Below, piece by piece: positions 2,039 to 10,142 of a DNA stretch of 59,639 bases. Source of the stretch: an uncultured Gammaproteobacteria bacterium (GTDB lineage: Bacteria; Pseudomonadota; Gammaproteobacteria; Steroidobacterales; Woeseiaceae); assembly GCA_913063505.1 (NCBI GenBank), contig CAJXYT010000005.1, positions 1-59,639 of the forward strand, read 5' to 3'. The position numbers and the translations under genes are program-made. The notes below the pieces were generated by a model. It was not told the DNA's origin. It saw only the letters and a list, made by a program, of their open reading frames with translations, and made no database searches. Position 1 is the first letter of the stretch. Every line of letters starts with the position of its first letter.

Positions 2039-2485
2039 GTGCCAATTACAAATCACGAAGAACGACGCGAAGCGCTTCGCCAGTTATTGATGCAAGGCCC
2101 TGCCCAAACGCAGGGCATTCTGGTCGATGCGTTAAGTGCTCTAGGGCATAGCGCAACCCAGTCCAGCGTTAGCCGTAACCTGAAAGAGCTCGGCGCGATG
2201 AAAACGATCGTCGGCTACAAGCTGCCCACTGGCAACACGTCAGATGACGATCATTTCGCTGCGGTCAAAGATCTACTGCACGCGATATCTCCGGCGGGGC
2301 CTAACCTGCTTGTCGTTGGTACAGCGATCGGCGCGGCACAGCGTGTTGCTCTGGCTTTTGATCGCTGCAACTGGCCTGAAGTCATCGGCAGCATTGGCGG
2401 CGATGACACCGTATTTGTCGCGACCGAATCTGGAGCCGCACAGAAAATTATAATCTCAAGGATCGAGCACTCCGCTCGACCCTGA
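2039..2485 (+). CDS. argR: arginine repressor ArgR (GTG start)
   Basis: N-terminal wHTH with SSVSRNLKELGAMK and C-terminal oligomerisation/Arg-binding domain; first gene of arg operon. Confidence 0.88.
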   Translation: MPITNHEERREALRQLLMQGPAQTQGILVDALSALGHSATQSSVSRNLKELGAMKTIVGYKLPTGNTSDDDHFAAVKDLLHAISPAGPNLLVVGTAIGAAQRVALAFDRCNWPEVIGSIGGDDTVFVATESGAAQKIIISRIEHSARP

Positions 2486-2490
2486 CCCTT

Positions 2491-3711
2491 TTGGAGAACG
2501 CAGTGAGCACGGACACATCACCTATTATTTTGGCGTTTTCAGGAGGTCTGGACACGTCATTTTGCGTCCCATGGCTAAAGGAAAACTACGGTCGCGATGT
2601 CATCACTGCTTGCGTTGATACTGGTGGCATTGACGCGATTGCTGCTGTCGCGCTCGAAGAGCGTGCAATGGCATTGGGTGCGATTGAGCATATCCTCATT
2701 GACGCAAAGCAGGACTTTTTCGACACTGTCATCAAACACTTGATCGCCGGTAATGTACTGCGCGGCCAGGCCTACCCGCTATGCGTCGGCGCTGAAAGAG
2801 GACTGCAAGCAGAAAGGCTGGCGAAGATCGCATCCGAGCGTGGCGCAACAACGGTTGCCCACGGTTGCACCGCAGCTGGCAACGATCAGGTGCGATTTGA
2901 GGTCGCCCTCAGAACACTAAATCCTGGGCTGGAAGTCTTAGCGCCGGTTCGGGACAACAACTGGGTTCGCGTAGATCAACTGGCTTATCTCGAAAACCAT
3001 GACTTGCCATTACCGTCTCAAGGGTCCGCTTATTCAATTAATCGAGGTCTATGGGGGATAACCATCGGTGGTCGGGAAACTCTGACCTCAGAGACGTCGA
3101 TTCCAGAGTCTGCGTGGGTATTGTCACCGACTGCGTTTTCAAAACCGCTTACCGCATCGACTCACACCCTGGAATTTGTCGGCGGAGTGCCAGTCGCTCT
3201 TGACAAAAAGACGCTCGCGCCCGTTGAACTTATTGAGCAGCTCGAAACTCTTGCGGGCAACTACGGTATCGGCCGCGGTATTCATCTTGGTGACACGGTG
3301 CTTGGGACCAAAGGACGTGTCGCATTCGAGGCACCCGCAGCGATCACATTAATTACGGCACACCGTGAACTTGAAAAGCTGGTTTTGAGTGGCCAACAGA
3401 TGCGTGTCAAAGATAGCGTCTCCGCGATCTATGGCGATCTCGTACATGAGGGGAAGCAGCTGGATCTGGCTTGCGCCGATATCGAAGCGCTGCTGATCTC
3501 GTCACAAAGACGCGTTAGTGGAACCGTTACATTCACGCTGCGGCCCGGCCAGTTGTTCATTGATGGATCCACCTCGCGACATTCATTGCTCGCGGCAACC
3601 AAAGGCGTATATGGTGAATCGGCTGGTGAATGGACCGCCGGCGACGCACTCGGCTACGCACGCATCCTGTCGTTGCCGGGCTCACTCCAAACAAGAGCGG
3701 CGGGAGAATGA
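2491..3711 (+). CDS. argG: argininosuccinate synthase (TTG or internal GTG start)
   Basis: LAFSGGLDTSFCVPWL, AHGCTAAGNDQVRFEVALRTLNP, YSINRGLWGITIGGRETLTSE. Confidence 0.9.
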   Translation: MENAVSTDTSPIILAFSGGLDTSFCVPWLKENYGRDVITACVDTGGIDAIAAVALEERAMALGAIEHILIDAKQDFFDTVIKHLIAGNVLRGQAYPLCVGAERGLQAERLAKIASERGATTVAHGCTAAGNDQVRFEVALRTLNPGLEVLAPVRDNNWVRVDQLAYLENHDLPLPSQGSAYSINRGLWGITIGGRETLTSETSIPESAWVLSPTAFSKPLTASTHTLEFVGGVPVALDKKTLAPVELIEQLETLAGNYGIGRGIHLGDTVLGTKGRVAFEAPAAITLITAHRELEKLVLSGQQMRVKDSVSAIYGDLVHEGKQLDLACADIEALLISSQRRVSGTVTFTLRPGQLFIDGSTSRHSLLAATKGVYGESAGEWTAGDALGYARILSLPGSLQTRAAGE

Positions 3712-3712
3712 C

Positions 3713-4768
3713 ATGAAGAACATAGTAGTCGACAAAATAGCGTCCGTCGCTCAACACAATGACCTGACATCGGTGCTGCGCCTGTCATCGGATATCCCTT
3801 GTGAAGAAGGTATACTCATCGCCGTTCGCGTATTGAACAATAAGTCTCGATACAACCAACTCGAACTGATATCAGGTCGAATGGCGACCGTCACTATGGG
3901 CGACGTTGTGGTTGGGGCGCTTGGACACCGCCATGCCTTGCGCGGCTATTCCGGGCACTTACCCACCAAGCTATCAATCGGTGATCACGTACAACTCCTG
4001 AATATTGGCGGGGTCATCGGCATTTGTGATTCGGCAAACCCTGACGTCGGTGCAGCATTTGACTGCGAAGTACTCGGTACTGTCTTGGAATTCCCTTACT
4101 TGGGTGAGCGAATCGGTGTTCCGGCTCGCGCCGGGGCCACCACGCTCGACATCAACGCACAATTGGATATGAATGGCGTTCCTGTCGTCGCGCTCGCCGG
4201 CACCTGCATGGACTCAGGGAAAACGGCAGCGGCCTGTGCCATCGTCGGCAGGTTGCGTCATCTCGGTTTAAATGTAGCCGCCTGCAAGGCAACGGGTGTT
4301 TCATTACGTCGGGACGTGCTCGCCATGAAAGACGCTGGCGCCACTGACACGATGATCTTTTCGGATCTCGGAGTTGTCACGACGACAGCTGAAAACGGCC
4401 CGGCTCTAACGCGCTCGCTGTTGACCAGCCTCGGTGCGAAGAAACCAGACGTGGTCGTTCTCGAACTTGGCGACGGCCTACTCGGCGCGTACGGCGTCGC
4501 CGCTATTCTTGCTGATGAACAAATTAAGGCTTCGCTAACGGCGGTCGTGCTATGCGCCAATGATCCGGTATCGGCATGGGGTGGTGCCAAGATTTTGCGG
4601 GATGAATTCGATATAGAGCCTGCCGTGGTAACCGGCCCAGCTACGGACAATGATGTCGGTGTTCAGCAAATCGCGGAGCGGCTCTCATTGCCAGGAATTA
4701 ATGCGCTCTCGAGTGGTGTTGTACTGGGCGACAAAATTGCTAATCTGCTCGGCAGGGGCGCGGTATGA
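3713..4768 (+). CDS. uncharacterised P-loop NTPase-fold protein in arginine operon (DUF1611/DgcN-like layout by eye)
   Basis: ORF track starts at 3518 but ATG at 3713 follows argG; Walker A-like GTCMDSGKTA; C-terminal ELGDGLLGAYGVAAIL...ALTAVVLC; overlaps argC by ATGA. Confidence 0.75.
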   Translation: MKNIVVDKIASVAQHNDLTSVLRLSSDIPCEEGILIAVRVLNNKSRYNQLELISGRMATVTMGDVVVGALGHRHALRGYSGHLPTKLSIGDHVQLLNIGGVIGICDSANPDVGAAFDCEVLGTVLEFPYLGERIGVPARAGATTLDINAQLDMNGVPVVALAGTCMDSGKTAAACAIVGRLRHLGLNVAACKATGVSLRRDVLAMKDAGATDTMIFSDLGVVTTTAENGPALTRSLLTSLGAKKPDVVVLELGDGLLGAYGVAAILADEQIKASLTAVVLCANDPVSAWGGAKILRDEFDIEPAVVTGPATDNDVGVQQIAERLSLPGINALSSGVVLGDKIANLLGRGAV

Positions 4769-5826
4769 GCGCTCCAATTAAGGCGATTATCATTGGCGCG
4801 AGCGGCTACGTCGGTGGTGAATTATTACGACTGATCGCAGGTCATCCGAAATTCGAGCTCGCCGCTGCTGTCTCTGATAGTCGAGCCGGGCAATTGGTTG
4901 GTGAGGCCTTCGGTCATCTGTCTCAAGCATTGTCAGGAACCCGCTTTGTCGGTCGTAAAGACTGGCTGAACGGAATTGAAGATGGAAGCAATGTTGCTCT
5001 GTTCTCTGCTGCACCGCATGGCGCTTCAGCCGAAGTCATAGCGGCGGTGATTGCGGCAAGTGAAGAAAAAAATCTGGTCCTGCATGTCGTAGATTCGTCT
5101 GCGGACTTCAGATACCCAGAACAGTCGGCATGGGAATCCATATACGGCGCGAAGCATGGTGCGCCGGAGTTGCTCAGTGATTTCACCTGTGCGGTACCCG
5201 AGCACCTGAGCACAATCTCGACAGCGCATGTCGGACACCCGGGCTGTTTTGCCACAGCGAGTTTGCTCGCAGCAGTACCGCTGATGCAGTCGGGCCTGAC
5301 AGAGCCGGACGTTTTCATCTCAGGTGTAACCGGTAGCACTGGATCCGGGCGCATCCCGCAAGTGGGCACGCATCATCCTGAACGCAACAGTAATATGCAT
5401 GCCTATAAACCGTTGGTTCATCGTCATTCGCCGGAAATTGCGAGGCTCGCGAGTGTCGCCAGTGGCCGCGAAACGACTGTGCATTTCGTACCTCATTCGG
5501 GGCCATTCGCAAGAGGTATTCACGTAACGCTACAAGCTAGGACTAAGGAAGCTGTGAGTGAAGATCAGATTCGGGACGTGTATGTCAGCGCGTATGAAAA
5601 TTCTCCATTCGTCGAGATCGTTGGCGCGACGCCGAAACTAAAAAACGTCGTCGCGAGCAACATGTGTCACATCGGTGTCGCTACTGACGGCAATTCAGTC
5701 GTCGTGATGAGCGTGATTGACAATCTCGTCAAGGGTGCCGCTGGTGGCGCGGTGCAATGGATGAATCGACTCTGGGATCTGCCTGAGACCAGTGGACTTA
5801 CTGCTGCTGCACCGGGTTGGACCTGA
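4765..5826 (+). CDS. argC: N-acyl-gamma-glutamyl-phosphate reductase
   Basis: GASGYVGGELLRL, catalytic HPGCFATAS, HHPERNSNMHAYKPL. Confidence 0.9.
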   Translation: MSAPIKAIIIGASGYVGGELLRLIAGHPKFELAAAVSDSRAGQLVGEAFGHLSQALSGTRFVGRKDWLNGIEDGSNVALFSAAPHGASAEVIAAVIAASEEKNLVLHVVDSSADFRYPEQSAWESIYGAKHGAPELLSDFTCAVPEHLSTISTAHVGHPGCFATASLLAAVPLMQSGLTEPDVFISGVTGSTGSGRIPQVGTHHPERNSNMHAYKPLVHRHSPEIARLASVASGRETTVHFVPHSGPFARGIHVTLQARTKEAVSEDQIRDVYVSAYENSPFVEIVGATPKLKNVVASNMCHIGVATDGNSVVVMSVIDNLVKGAAGGAVQWMNRLWDLPETSGLTAAAPGWT

Positions 5827-7016
5827 TGCCTAAAAGCAATGATCAAACGATGATGTCAGACCCGCGAATTCGCGAAGCCAACGTGATGATCCCAGTCTAC
5901 GGTCAGCTGCCATTTGTTCCGGTGCGCGCCAGCGGTTGCGATATATTTACAGATGATGGCCGACGTATTCTCGATCTGTACGGAGGCCACGCTGTCGCTG
6001 CACTCGGTTACGGTCATCCGCAGCAGTTGAAGGCAGTCACCGAGCAGTGCAATAAGCTAATCTTTCAAAGCAATGTAGTGGCTCTGGAGATTCGCGCCCA
6101 GGCTGCCGAAAAACTGACACGTGTTGCTCCAAAAGGACTCGACCGCGTCTTCTTCGTCAACTCTGGCGCTGAAGCAAATGAAAATGCCTTGCGCATGGCG
6201 TGTATGGCGACGGGCCGCAAGAAAGTACTCGCAATCACTCATGGTTTCCATGGGCGCACAGCAGCTGCGGCCGCAGTAACTTGGAACGCCGATCGTTGGT
6301 ACGGCTTCCCGAACAAACCATTCGAAGTCGACTTCATACCGCGCGATGACATCGCCGCGGCAGAAGCAATGATAGGCGATGACATCGCAGCTGTAATTTT
6401 CGAGCCTGTACAGGGCGTCGCCGGTGGGTATGACTTATCAACGGATTTTCTTCACTCTTTACGAGATCTGACCAGCGCTAATGGCGCACTTCTTATCGCT
6501 GACGAAGTGCAGTCCGGCATCGGTCGCTGTGGTCAGTTCTTCGCAGTAGATGTGCATCAGATCGAGCCGGACATTCTGACCAGCGCGAAATCACTGGGAG
6601 GTGGAATCCCCTGCGGTGCTGTTCTTTGCACTCACTCGATTGCGGTCCGTTTCGGTACCGGTGACCTCGGCACGACCTTCGGCGGTGGACCGCTAGCAGC
6701 GGCGGCAATCGTGGCAACAATCGATGCGATTAGCGATGAAAACCTACTTAGTAATGTGCGCCGTTCGGAGACAGCCATTCGCGAAAAGTGCGTTGTCGGG
6801 CCGGTTACGCGAATTCAAGGCATGGGCCTCTTACTCGGTCTGGTTTGCGATCGGCCGGCCGTCGAAGTGCGCGACGCACTTCTCAGCCATGATATTTTGA
6901 CGGGCACCAGCAGCGATCCTAATATAGTCCGAATACTCGCTCCGCTGGTTCTTGAACTACAACACATTGATCATCTCGCCGAGGCGTTACAAAATATTGC
7001 GCCCGCAACAGACTAA
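5826..7016 (+). CDS. argD: acylornithine aminotransferase (class III PLP)
   Basis: FVNSGAEANENALRMA, HGFHGRTAAA, LIADEVQSGIGR, SAKSLGGGIPCGA (PLP Lys). Confidence 0.9.
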   Translation: MPKSNDQTMMSDPRIREANVMIPVYGQLPFVPVRASGCDIFTDDGRRILDLYGGHAVAALGYGHPQQLKAVTEQCNKLIFQSNVVALEIRAQAAEKLTRVAPKGLDRVFFVNSGAEANENALRMACMATGRKKVLAITHGFHGRTAAAAAVTWNADRWYGFPNKPFEVDFIPRDDIAAAEAMIGDDIAAVIFEPVQGVAGGYDLSTDFLHSLRDLTSANGALLIADEVQSGIGRCGQFFAVDVHQIEPDILTSAKSLGGGIPCGAVLCTHSIAVRFGTGDLGTTFGGGPLAAAAIVATIDAISDENLLSNVRRSETAIREKCVVGPVTRIQGMGLLLGLVCDRPAVEVRDALLSHDILTGTSSDPNIVRILAPLVLELQHIDHLAEALQNIAPATD

Positions 7017-7027
7017 AGGAAGTATTG

Positions 7028-8029
7028 ATGAAAGCGTTTAACGACCTTGCCGATTTTTCGAATGAAGAGATACAGGCTCTTGTAGAGCTTGCAGGTCGAC
7101 TTGACTCGAGCCCAGAACCGGAAGCACTAAAAGGAAAAGTGTTGTCGCTTTTGTTTTTGAGTCCCTCTTTGCGAACATTGGCCTCTTTTCAGGCAGCGAT
7201 GATTCGCCTCGGTGGCGGCTCCTTCGTCATTTCACCTGAGATGTCCATCCACGGAATAGAATCAAGACCAGGAATCGTCATGGATGGAGCCGCTGCGGAA
7301 CATATTCGAGAAGCTGTCCCAGTTATTGCCTCTTATGGCGACGCCATCGGAATTCGTGCTTTTGCTGAGCGCAAAAACATTGAAGCCGATATACAGGAAA
7401 ACGAATTCACCGCTCTAACGGATTTGATTGATACACCCTACATCAACATGGAATCGGCAATGAACCATCCCTGCCAGAGCCTCGCGGACTGGAAAACCAT
7501 GGATGATATGAACATACCCACCAATGGTGGCAAATTCGTGTTGAGCTGGGCTTATCACCCACATGCTCTGCCTTTGGCCGTTCCTGCCGCCACCCTACAT
7601 ATGGCCGCCAAACGCGGAATGGACGTTACGGTATTGCGGCCAGAAGGCTTCGAGCTGCCTGCTGCCCTGATGCAAAAAGCGGCTACAGCCGCGGCGGCAT
7701 CTGGCGGGTCGATAACAGAAACGGATCAGCGCACCGAGGCGATGGAAGGCGCACATATTATCTATGCAAAATCGTGGTCATCGACCCGCCACTACGGTGA
7801 CAAGCTGAATGACCAGAAACTGCGTGAAAAACATCTCGACTGGTGTGTCGATGAGCCTTGGTTCGAAAACGCTAAGGACGATTGCCGCTTCATGCACTGT
7901 TTGCCTGTTCGTCGAGGCGTTGTCGTCGCAGACAATATTCTGGACGGTCCACGCAGTGTGGTGATCGCAGAAGCGCGTAACCGCATGCTCGCGCAAATGG
8001 CCGTGCTGCATCAGATACTAGGAAGCTAG
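7028..8029 (+). CDS. N-acetyl/N-succinyl-ornithine carbamoyltransferase (ArgF' class)
   Basis: SPSLRTLASF, VMDGAAAEHIREAVPVIASYGDAIGIRAF, MESAMNHPCQSLADW, VLSWAYHPHALPLAVP, HCLPVRRGVVV: resembles AOTC/SOTC rather than canonical OTC. Confidence 0.85.
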   Translation: MKAFNDLADFSNEEIQALVELAGRLDSSPEPEALKGKVLSLLFLSPSLRTLASFQAAMIRLGGGSFVISPEMSIHGIESRPGIVMDGAAAEHIREAVPVIASYGDAIGIRAFAERKNIEADIQENEFTALTDLIDTPYINMESAMNHPCQSLADWKTMDDMNIPTNGGKFVLSWAYHPHALPLAVPAATLHMAAKRGMDVTVLRPEGFELPAALMQKAATAAAASGGSITETDQRTEAMEGAHIIYAKSWSSTRHYGDKLNDQKLREKHLDWCVDEPWFENAKDDCRFMHCLPVRRGVVVADNILDGPRSVVIAEARNRMLAQMAVLHQILGS

Positions 8030-8031
8030 AA

Positions 8032-8961
8032 ATGAGCAACAAGAATGATAGTGCGATAGTGGTTTCGGCACTGAAACATGCCGCACCATATATCCGCCTT
8101 TATAAAGGCAAAGTATTCGTCATCAAGGCAGGCGGCGAAGTGTTCGCCGATGCCGAAAAAGCTGCGGCACTGATGGAGCAAGTTGGCATTCTTTACCAGG
8201 TCGGCGTTCGCGTCGTATTGATTCATGGTGGCGGGCCACAGGCTACCAAACTGGCATCGGCGCTCGGACTCGACACCACATTCATCGATGGCCGTCGCGT
8301 GACCAACAGCGAGTCCCTCGATGTCGCGACGATGGTCCTGAATGGCCAAATTAATACTCGAATTCTCGCCACTTGTCGTGACTTACATATTCCGGCCGTC
8401 GGTATCAGCGGTGTCGACGCCGGCTTAATTCGCGCGCACAAGCGGCCACCGGTCGAGCGCGATGGTCAAACTTCAGTTGACTATGGCTTCGTCGGTGATA
8501 TCGACTCTGTCAATGCTGATATTTTGCGCAAGCAACTCGATGCTGGATTGATGCCGGTCGTTAGCCCGATCTCATGCGACGAGTCAGGCACCATTCTGAA
8601 CATCAACGCCGACACGGTTGCCGCAGCGATCGCCGCTGAGTTAGGTGCTGAGAAACTGATACTCGCAACTGGAGCTGCCGGAATTCTTGAAGACATAAAT
8701 GACCCGACTTCATTGATTAGCTACATCGACAGAGCCGCACTCAAAAAGCTCTGTAAATCCGGAAGCCTCGCCGACGGCATGCTGCCAAAGGCGGCAGCGA
8801 TAGACTCGGCAATCGCAAATGGAGTGCAGCGCGTACACATCATTTCCAGCAAGGTTGCTGACAGCATTCTTCTCGAGGTGTTTACCAACGAAGGGACCGG
8901 TACTTTGGTCGTCGATGATATCGGCGGACTGACGCTTGCTGAGCAGAGCGCTGACTCATGA
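8032..8961 (+). CDS. argB: N-acylglutamate kinase (amino acid kinase domain, no GNAT domain)
   Basis: KVFVIKAGGEVF, LIHGGGPQATKL, GFVGDI, LNINADTVAAAIA; ends NEGTGTLVVDDIGG. Confidence 0.88.
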   Translation: MSNKNDSAIVVSALKHAAPYIRLYKGKVFVIKAGGEVFADAEKAAALMEQVGILYQVGVRVVLIHGGGPQATKLASALGLDTTFIDGRRVTNSESLDVATMVLNGQINTRILATCRDLHIPAVGISGVDAGLIRAHKRPPVERDGQTSVDYGFVGDIDSVNADILRKQLDAGLMPVVSPISCDESGTILNINADTVAAAIAAELGAEKLILATGAAGILEDINDPTSLISYIDRAALKKLCKSGSLADGMLPKAAAIDSAIANGVQRVHIISSKVADSILLEVFTNEGTGTLVVDDIGGLTLAEQSADS

Positions 8962-10142
8962 GCAGACTCTGGGAAAAAGGTTTACCACTCGACGAGCGAG
9001 TCTTACGTTACACCGCAGGCGAAGATCACCAGCTGGATGCCCGACTCATACCGTACGACGTACGCGGCTCAATAGCCCATGCCGAAATGCTCGCCGAGCA
9101 GGACTTGATCAGCGCGGCTGACTGTACTGCAATTCGCGACGGCTTAACTGCCCTCGACAAGAGCTTCGAAGCGGGCGATTGGTGCATCAACCTCGAAGAT
9201 GAAGATGCACATACAGCGCTTGAGTCGCGACTAACTGATGCGATCGGGCCGGTGGGAGGTCGACTACATCTTGGTCGCTCCAGAAATGATCAGGTCCTCA
9301 CCGCCCTCAGGATGTATCTCCGAGACGCGTCGAGCGATCTGGTTAGCCGTGTAAACCAACTGCGAGAATCGATCAGCAACCTGCAGGATCGTCAGGGCGA
9401 TATTAAGTTACCGGGCTATACGCACATGCAACATGCGATGCCGTCGTCAGTGGCACTTTGGTGTGGCGGGTTCGACGAGGGATTCGCTGATGCTGCTGAA
9501 GGATTAGCGTCATTACGCAAGCGCATCAATAAGAATCCATTGGGCAGCGCTGCTGGCTACGGTACGCCGGGGCTCCCACTGGATCGAGACGCGACGACAG
9601 CGAAACTCGACTTTGATATCACGCAGAATCCTGTAACAGCAGCACAGCTGTCTCGGGGCAAGGCCGAAAGCGCCCTGCTTTTTGAAATTACTCTCTTGCT
9701 GCAGGACCTCGGCCGCATGGCCAGCGACCTGTTGATGTTTTACACACAGGAGTTCGCTTACGTGTCGCTCGCGGCGGAGGTGACGACCGGCTCATCCATA
9801 ATGCCGCAGAAGCGCAATCCCGATGTCCTTGAGTTACTTCGGGCATCGTCAGCGACCGCGCAAGCCTGCCTCGATGAGTCACTGATGATCACTGCGAAAC
9901 TACCGTCCGGCTATCACCGCGATCTGCAGCGATTGAAGTCGCCGTTGTTCCGCTCAATCGATCTGGCCATCGACAGTGTCGATATCATGGCGTACTTGCT
10001 GGATGGACTGCAGTTCATTCCAGATAACATTAATCTCGACGAGGCGATATTCGCGACCGCAGAGGCCTATCGGCTGGTGCGCGAAGAAGGTATCCCTTTC
10101 CGTGATGCCTATAAACAGGTCGCCAAACGCTTCGCAAAATGA
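8958..10142 (+). CDS. argH: argininosuccinate lyase
   Basis: GGRLHLGRSRNDQV, PGYTHMQHAMPSS, TGSSIMPQKRNPD signature. Confidence 0.92.
   Translation: MSRLWEKGLPLDERVLRYTAGEDHQLDARLIPYDVRGSIAHAEMLAEQDLISAADCTAIRDGLTALDKSFEAGDWCINLEDEDAHTALESRLTDAIGPVGGRLHLGRSRNDQVLTALRMYLRDASSDLVSRVNQLRESISNLQDRQGDIKLPGYTHMQHAMPSSVALWCGGFDEGFADAAEGLASLRKRINKNPLGSAAGYGTPGLPLDRDATTAKLDFDITQNPVTAAQLSRGKAESALLFEITLLLQDLGRMASDLLMFYTQEFAYVSLAAEVTTGSSIMPQKRNPDVLELLRASSATAQACLDESLMITAKLPSGYHRDLQRLKSPLFRSIDLAIDSVDIMAYLLDGLQFIPDNINLDEAIFATAEAYRLVREEGIPFRDAYKQVAKRFAK

Follow-up and report, generated by a model that had tools for sequence, protein, structure and literature searches.

Very many bacteria make arginine by way of N-acylated intermediates. 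The first enzyme of this route exists in several unrelated or rearranged forms, the known bacterial types of N-acylglutamate synthase (NAGS) using acyl donors such as acetyl-CoA. LysX and ArgX, the LysW-glutamate ligases, begin lysine or arginine synthesis by blocking the amino group in an ATP-dependent ligation. Corynebacterium has a NAGS of a novel type, distinct from the classical ones (PMC3827942), and Bacteroidetes have a succinyl-type pathway with a putative N-succinylglutamate synthase, BT3761, and an SOTCase (PMC7311316). The acyl group can be predicted from the carbamoyltransferase: Glu92, Asn185 and Lys302 of the Xanthomonas AOTCase represent the acetyl type, and the succinyl enzyme carries A, S, P, V or Q, then P, and then V, I or E at these positions (PMC4581275). 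A single residue at position 92 can switch the specificity, with S, P, A or V leading to succinyl preference (PMC7311316).

The gene studied here, X, from marine Woeseia-type bacteria, shares its genomic and pathway slot with ArgA, ArgJ, the Xanthomonas-type NAGS-K and the short GNAT NAGS, and is mutually exclusive with NAGS-K within its order, but differs from all four in having a P-loop fold and no GNAT, ArgJ or NAT domain. The X operons resemble the Bacteroidetes pathway in their succinylornithine-type ArgF' and arg cluster context, and in both systems the proposed first enzyme is not a classical ArgA (PMC7311316); X, however, is a P-loop protein of a gammaproteobacterium, and BT3761 was compared with it by description rather than by sequence. 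The logic that we propose for X is that of LysX and ArgX, although these two belong to the ATP-grasp enzymes and work on a carrier protein, and no LysW system is seen in the X operon. Given its orthologs, operon context, distribution across the order, AlphaFold2 model and Foldseek matches, we regard X as a candidate N-succinyl-L-glutamate synthase: it probably makes N-succinyl-L-glutamate and so opens an arginine pathway of the succinyl type, as a putative non-orthologous replacement of GNAT-type NAGS.

Gene X and its place in the arginine operon

The window, by which we mean the whole stretch of 59,639 nucleotides analyzed, comes from a Woeseiaceae-type gammaproteobacterial MAG with a completeness of about 90%. 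Its forward strand carries an operon in the order argR-argG-X-argC-argD-argF'-argB-argH, encoding the arginine repressor (2039..2485; NCBIfam TIGR01529, below the curated cut-off), argininosuccinate synthase (2491..3711; TIGR00032), X (3713..4768), N-acylglutamyl-phosphate reductase (4765..5826; TIGR01850), N-acylornithine aminotransferase (5817..7016; TIGR00707, below the curated cut-off), N-acylornithine carbamoyltransferase (7025..8029), N-acylglutamate kinase (8032..8961) and argininosuccinate lyase (8958..10142; TIGR00838), the seven genes around X being identified by NCBIfam as the first-pass annotation had named them. The matches to ArgB stop at the kinase domain, with no NAT domain, and ArgH has no GNAT, in agreement with the earlier reading that neither protein is fused to an acetyltransferase. 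The frame of X runs for 351 codons from the ATG at 3713 to the stop at 4768; it begins one base past the argG stop codon (TGA, 3709-3711), with GGGAG upstream, and its end overlaps the argC start at 4765 in an ATGA. A scan for ARG boxes gave matches no more numerous than in shuffles. The sampled part of the remaining window (13312-59639) holds what look like ordinary housekeeping genes (hemC, dapF, xerC, hslU, ubiB, ampG, coaBC, mutM/fpg, ftsY and ftsX), and neither tRNA genes nor tandem repeats were found there.

Close orthologs of X are present in 6 of 291 genomes of the class, the window's own included, and all six have the gene order argG-X-argC, the other five orthologs being 44-81% identical. 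A scan of one genome per species provided 80 X loci of about 64-93% identity, labeled as Woeseiaceae, Chromatiales, Steroidobacteraceae or unclassified Gammaproteobacteria or Proteobacteria; where the flanks were present, X lay between argG and argC in all 80 genome-contig orthologs. Two genomes from two other families (G043 and G123) have the order argD-argF'-argB-argH-argG-X-argC, and in another (G248) the same arg genes and X are split over two contigs. As the orthologs of 64-93% identity in 80 genome contigs and of 44-47% in the two other families all sit in argG-X-argC, X is not a chance reading frame; coordinates and orthologs agree with the original call of a real 351-residue gene between argG and argC. 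A genome from another class of the phylum has an X of 63% identity in the arrangement argR-X-argC-argB (L211:6095-9667), which suggests a horizontal transfer of part of the operon. One further match (L021, in G178) was dropped as a peptidase-like chance match, judged from its sequence. The searches found no relatives of X in viral contigs, no sequence relative in the PDB with either the single protein or a 40-sequence profile, and no description of X or of a P-loop NAGS in the literature.

Fold and family of X

The AlphaFold2 model of X, built from 40 orthologs, has a mean pLDDT of 81.5 and a pTM of 0.81, the P-loop half being mostly above 80-90 and parts of the N-terminal beta domain weak. 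It supports the layout recognized earlier, a beta-rich N-terminal domain of about 155 residues fused to a C-terminal P-loop domain. The top Foldseek matches belong to the SIMIBI class, namely FtsY/Ffh, dethiobiotin synthetase (3of5, TM 0.62 by target), HypB (2hf8, 0.64) and MinD, and X combines the P-loop pattern GxxxxGK[TS] with a SIMIBI-type fold; as modeled, it belongs to the SIMIBI-class P-loop proteins, with dethiobiotin synthetase, MobB and HypB coming closest. The P-loop itself (residues 163-171, GTCMDSGKT; 4199..4225) has G163, M166, G169, K170 and T171 conserved in orthologs and paralogs, and in the hhalign comparison the K192-x-T194-G195 motif (4286..4297) falls on the KP-x-G lysine segment found in BioD-type proteins. 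The profile alignment with the latter spans the region from the P-loop to the K-x-T-G segment with an E-value of 3.7e-6, strong only over about 41 columns. E251 of the ELGDG sequence (motif E-x-G-D-G) is invariant in X and was matched to the acidic ligand of BioD by eye only; in E. coli BioD, we take the catalytic lysine to be K37 and the acidic metal ligand E115.

X resembles BioD, MobB and CbiA in the BioD fold match and the alignment of the KxTG lysine, and its family gives weak MobB, CbiA and AAA_26 hits, but it differs from them by the additional N-terminal domain, for which no match to any Pfam family was found. None of the curated family cut-offs is reached by X. With the MobB models, it scores 17.8 bits against a cut-off of 26.6 (PF03205) and 19.8 against 76.2 (TIGR00176), one distant paralog passing PF03205 with 35.1 bits, and neither Pfam nor NCBIfam gives a match to a GNAT/NAT or PF01960 domain. 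Among the residues kept in both X and its distant paralogs are the P-loop, K192, T194, G195, D201, D207, D218, E251 and D284, while those kept only in X include K44, Y47, N48, N97, D312 and N313, and the latter may shape the substrate site.

The first-pass annotation had likened X by eye to DUF1611 and the DgcN proteins. The BioD-type part of the fold check was borne out by Foldseek and hhalign, but membership in DUF1611 was not: although the two share the two-domain layout with a C-terminal P-loop, X gives no hit to PF07755 (cut-off 25), an ortholog (L004) and a paralog reach 15.9 and 22.8 bits, and the sub-threshold matches in relatives of X (E-values from 7e-5 to 9e-3) cover the P-loop only. 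Compared by hhalign with a profile of fetched DUF1611 loci, the full-length X profile has a probability of 0 (E-value 0.9) and the P-loop halves a probability of 15 (E-value 0.002); the match is not significant, and we rejected the assignment. DgcN, a DUF1611 protein, is said to be an N-acetyltransferase of D-glutamate, and some of the fetched DUF1611 genes adjoin an enolase-type gene, a neighborhood that presumably fits the DgcN-DgcA pair. DgcN would be a P-loop protein that acylates glutamate, and as such an analogy it is a lead for X.

Acylglutamate synthases and the predicted acyl group across the order

In a sample of 60 genomes of the order, with X called at E < 1e-100 and the absence of acylglutamate synthases judged by family searches, X is present in 34 and absent from 26. 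None of the 34 has an ArgA over the cut-off, the best match to the ArgA model being ArgB itself, in its kinase part only, and none has the PF04768 NAT domain of the Xanthomonas-type NAGS-K. A first test of six X genomes gave no match to ArgJ (PF01960), and none of the 60 genomes has one over the cut-off. The observation that neither ArgA nor ArgJ is visible beside X, originally made on the window, thus extends to genome-wide searches, and the co-occurrence of X with arg operons lacking ArgA, a proposed check of its role, is seen at the level of genomes in 34 of 34. Among the 26 genomes lacking X, 16 carry the NAT domain of NAGS-K, mostly together with the kinase on open frames of about 440-466 amino acids. 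The remaining 10 show no match to ArgB/NAGS, the acylglutamate kinase, and give the impression of a lost or unassembled pathway. X and NAGS-K co-occur in none of the 60 genomes (Fisher's exact test on genomes, relatedness ignored, p = 2e-13), and at the family level, eight X families and six NAGS-K families show zero overlap. Two X genomes (G361 and G388) are assembled as single contigs. Gene order is not the same in the two operon types, and between them the proteins are only about 26-44% identical; whole operons may therefore have been exchanged, in which case the number of independent events behind the exclusion may be small and the association partly phylogenetic.

As a separate observation, X, NAGS-K and ArgB matches are all missing from genomes of two families (G349, G362, G375, G387 and G397; G352, G366, G379 and G391), which suggests arginine auxotrophy in four small genomes of about 1.3-1.4 Mb and in five others of those families.

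The change of the first enzyme is accompanied by a predicted change of the acyl group, from acetyl with NAGS-K to succinyl with X, as judged from the residues of ArgF'. At the diagnostic positions, the ArgF' of the window reads Ala, Pro and Val (A91, P183 and V300), the succinylornithine-type signature (PMC4581275, PMC7311316), and it is called N-acetylornithine-type by NCBIfam. The comparison covered 71 X loci readable at the diagnostic position (68 on genome contigs and 3 distant) and 14 NAGS-K loci: 56 of the 68 read APV, 9 read APA and 3 are incomplete (A??, A?? and AP?), and the distant loci read VPE, VPE and PPE, while with NAGS-K there are 11 ENK and 3 ENQ. An N-succinylornithine residue is thus present in 71 of 71 X-linked proteins and an N-acetylornithine residue in 14 of 14 NAGS-K-linked ones; in 9 of the 68, the A at the third position lies outside the published V/I/E set. 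All three NAGS-K operons read have an M20-like gene between argG and argB, taken from its sequence and position to be argE, and the X operons have none. The window's genome has a clear DapE (succinyl-diaminopimelate desuccinylase; 541 bits, the cut-off being 361.8), none of its M20 proteins exceeds the cut-off for acetylornithine deacetylase, and the succinyl group would be removed by DapE or another M20 enzyme.

Proposed role of X and rival explanations

Since X is present exactly where the usual first arginine enzyme is missing, it is the best candidate for an unrelated replacement. This is what the first-pass annotation had put forward, next to a regulatory role, and the exclusion with NAGS-K together with the residue switch in ArgF' much strengthens the candidacy. 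By blocking the alpha-amino group of L-glutamate, X would yield N-succinyl-L-glutamate, to be processed by ArgB, ArgC, ArgD and the succinylornithine-type ArgF'. For X itself, we infer catalysis, the acyl group placed on glutamate and the use of ATP rather than CoA chemistry: ATP and succinate would form an intermediate resembling succinyl phosphate, which the amine of glutamate then attacks, the alternative chemistry being a succinyl-CoA-dependent transfer. BioD activates a carbamate, and this analogy of carboxylate activation with ATP, together with the conserved P-loop lysine, K-x-T-G lysine and glutamate of E-x-G-D-G, is why we prefer the ATP and succinate mechanism; the conservation of the nucleotide-handling residues favors, by analogy, an ATP-dependent activation of succinate over acyl-CoA transfer. 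More tentatively, X could be a ligase that forms N-succinyl-L-glutamate at the expense of ATP, with a BioD-like P-loop domain and no need for acyl-CoA, founding a wider family of amino-acid N-acyl ligases that includes both of its paralog clades. If the replacement is real, a P-loop protein closes a gap in the pathway of many genomes of the Woeseiaceae and Steroidobacteraceae types, pathway tools would cease to call such bacteria arginine auxotrophs, a succinyl-type arginine pathway exists outside Bacteroidetes, and a function is gained for a family that lacks annotation and has two other conserved gene neighborhoods; if the ATP-dependent ligase is also real, the first arginine enzyme has a new fold and a new chemistry.

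The closest competitor, compatible with the core of this reading, keeps X as an N-acylglutamate synthase but has its P-loop adapted to CoA and an acyl-CoA as donor. The donors of the known bacterial NAGS types speak for it, and so would a P-loop precedent in DgcN, with the enolase-type neighbors of DUF1611 genes; that precedent is weakened by the failure of X to join DUF1611, and the P-loop, K192, D201, D218 and E251 are all conserved in X as in nucleotide-using SIMIBI enzymes, making the variant possible but somewhat unlikely. That X acetylates rather than succinylates, the ArgF' signature being uninformative on the acyl group, could be argued from the window's ArgF' scoring above the cut-off of the NCBIfam model for N-acetylornithine carbamoyltransferase. 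We find it improbable: every X locus readable at all three diagnostic positions is of the succinyl type in at least two of them, the NAGS-K loci in none, and the single residue at position 92 is a published specificity switch (PMC7311316).

Other explanations deny X the acylation altogether. A divergent GNAT that escaped detection could make N-acylglutamate, X being accessory or regulatory, for example, an arginine-responsive ATPase; the non-classical NAGS of Corynebacterium is a precedent (PMC3827942), and the larger X genomes are rich in GNATs, with 5-14 PF00583 matches each, their loci having been compared in part. The window's about 90% complete genome, however, has only four PF00583 places, consisting of RimI, two unassigned GNATs and one broken reading, and RimI is the sole intact one with a clear homolog in each of the five X genomes compared. 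A GNAT NAGS conserved in all X genomes, named at the outset as the finding that would overturn the proposal, was looked for with ArgA, ArgJ, NAT and PF00583 models and not found, and a regulator is not expected to be exclusive with NAGS-K; we consider a hidden GNAT rather unlikely. Still less credit goes to X being a metallochaperone-like SIMIBI NTPase, similar to HypB or UreG, that loads metal into an M20 deacylase. HypB is among the Foldseek matches, and in one clade of paralogs the gene is invariably paired with one for a glutamate-carboxypeptidase-type M20 enzyme, but the X operons have no M20 gene, the NAGS-K operons have their own ArgE-like M20 gene and no X, and the presence of X exactly where NAGS is missing would be left unexplained.

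The paralogs form two distant clades that, pooled, align with X over the full length (hhalign E-value 1.8e-61). The M20-coupled clade occurs in several families (L143, L144, L153, L154, L155 and L212), in most cases with a flavin-reductase-like gene alongside, and the other (L142, L145-L152, L156, L213 and L214) always has as its neighbor an ABC exporter gene, the product being about 570 amino acids long. Some genomes have paralogs together with X, others have them together with NAGS-K, and their role therefore differs from that of X. The M20-linked clade is possibly a unit of N-acyl-amino-acid metabolism, and the pairing of an N-acylating paralog with a hydrolase of N-acyl-glutamate would be in keeping with a general amide-forming activity.
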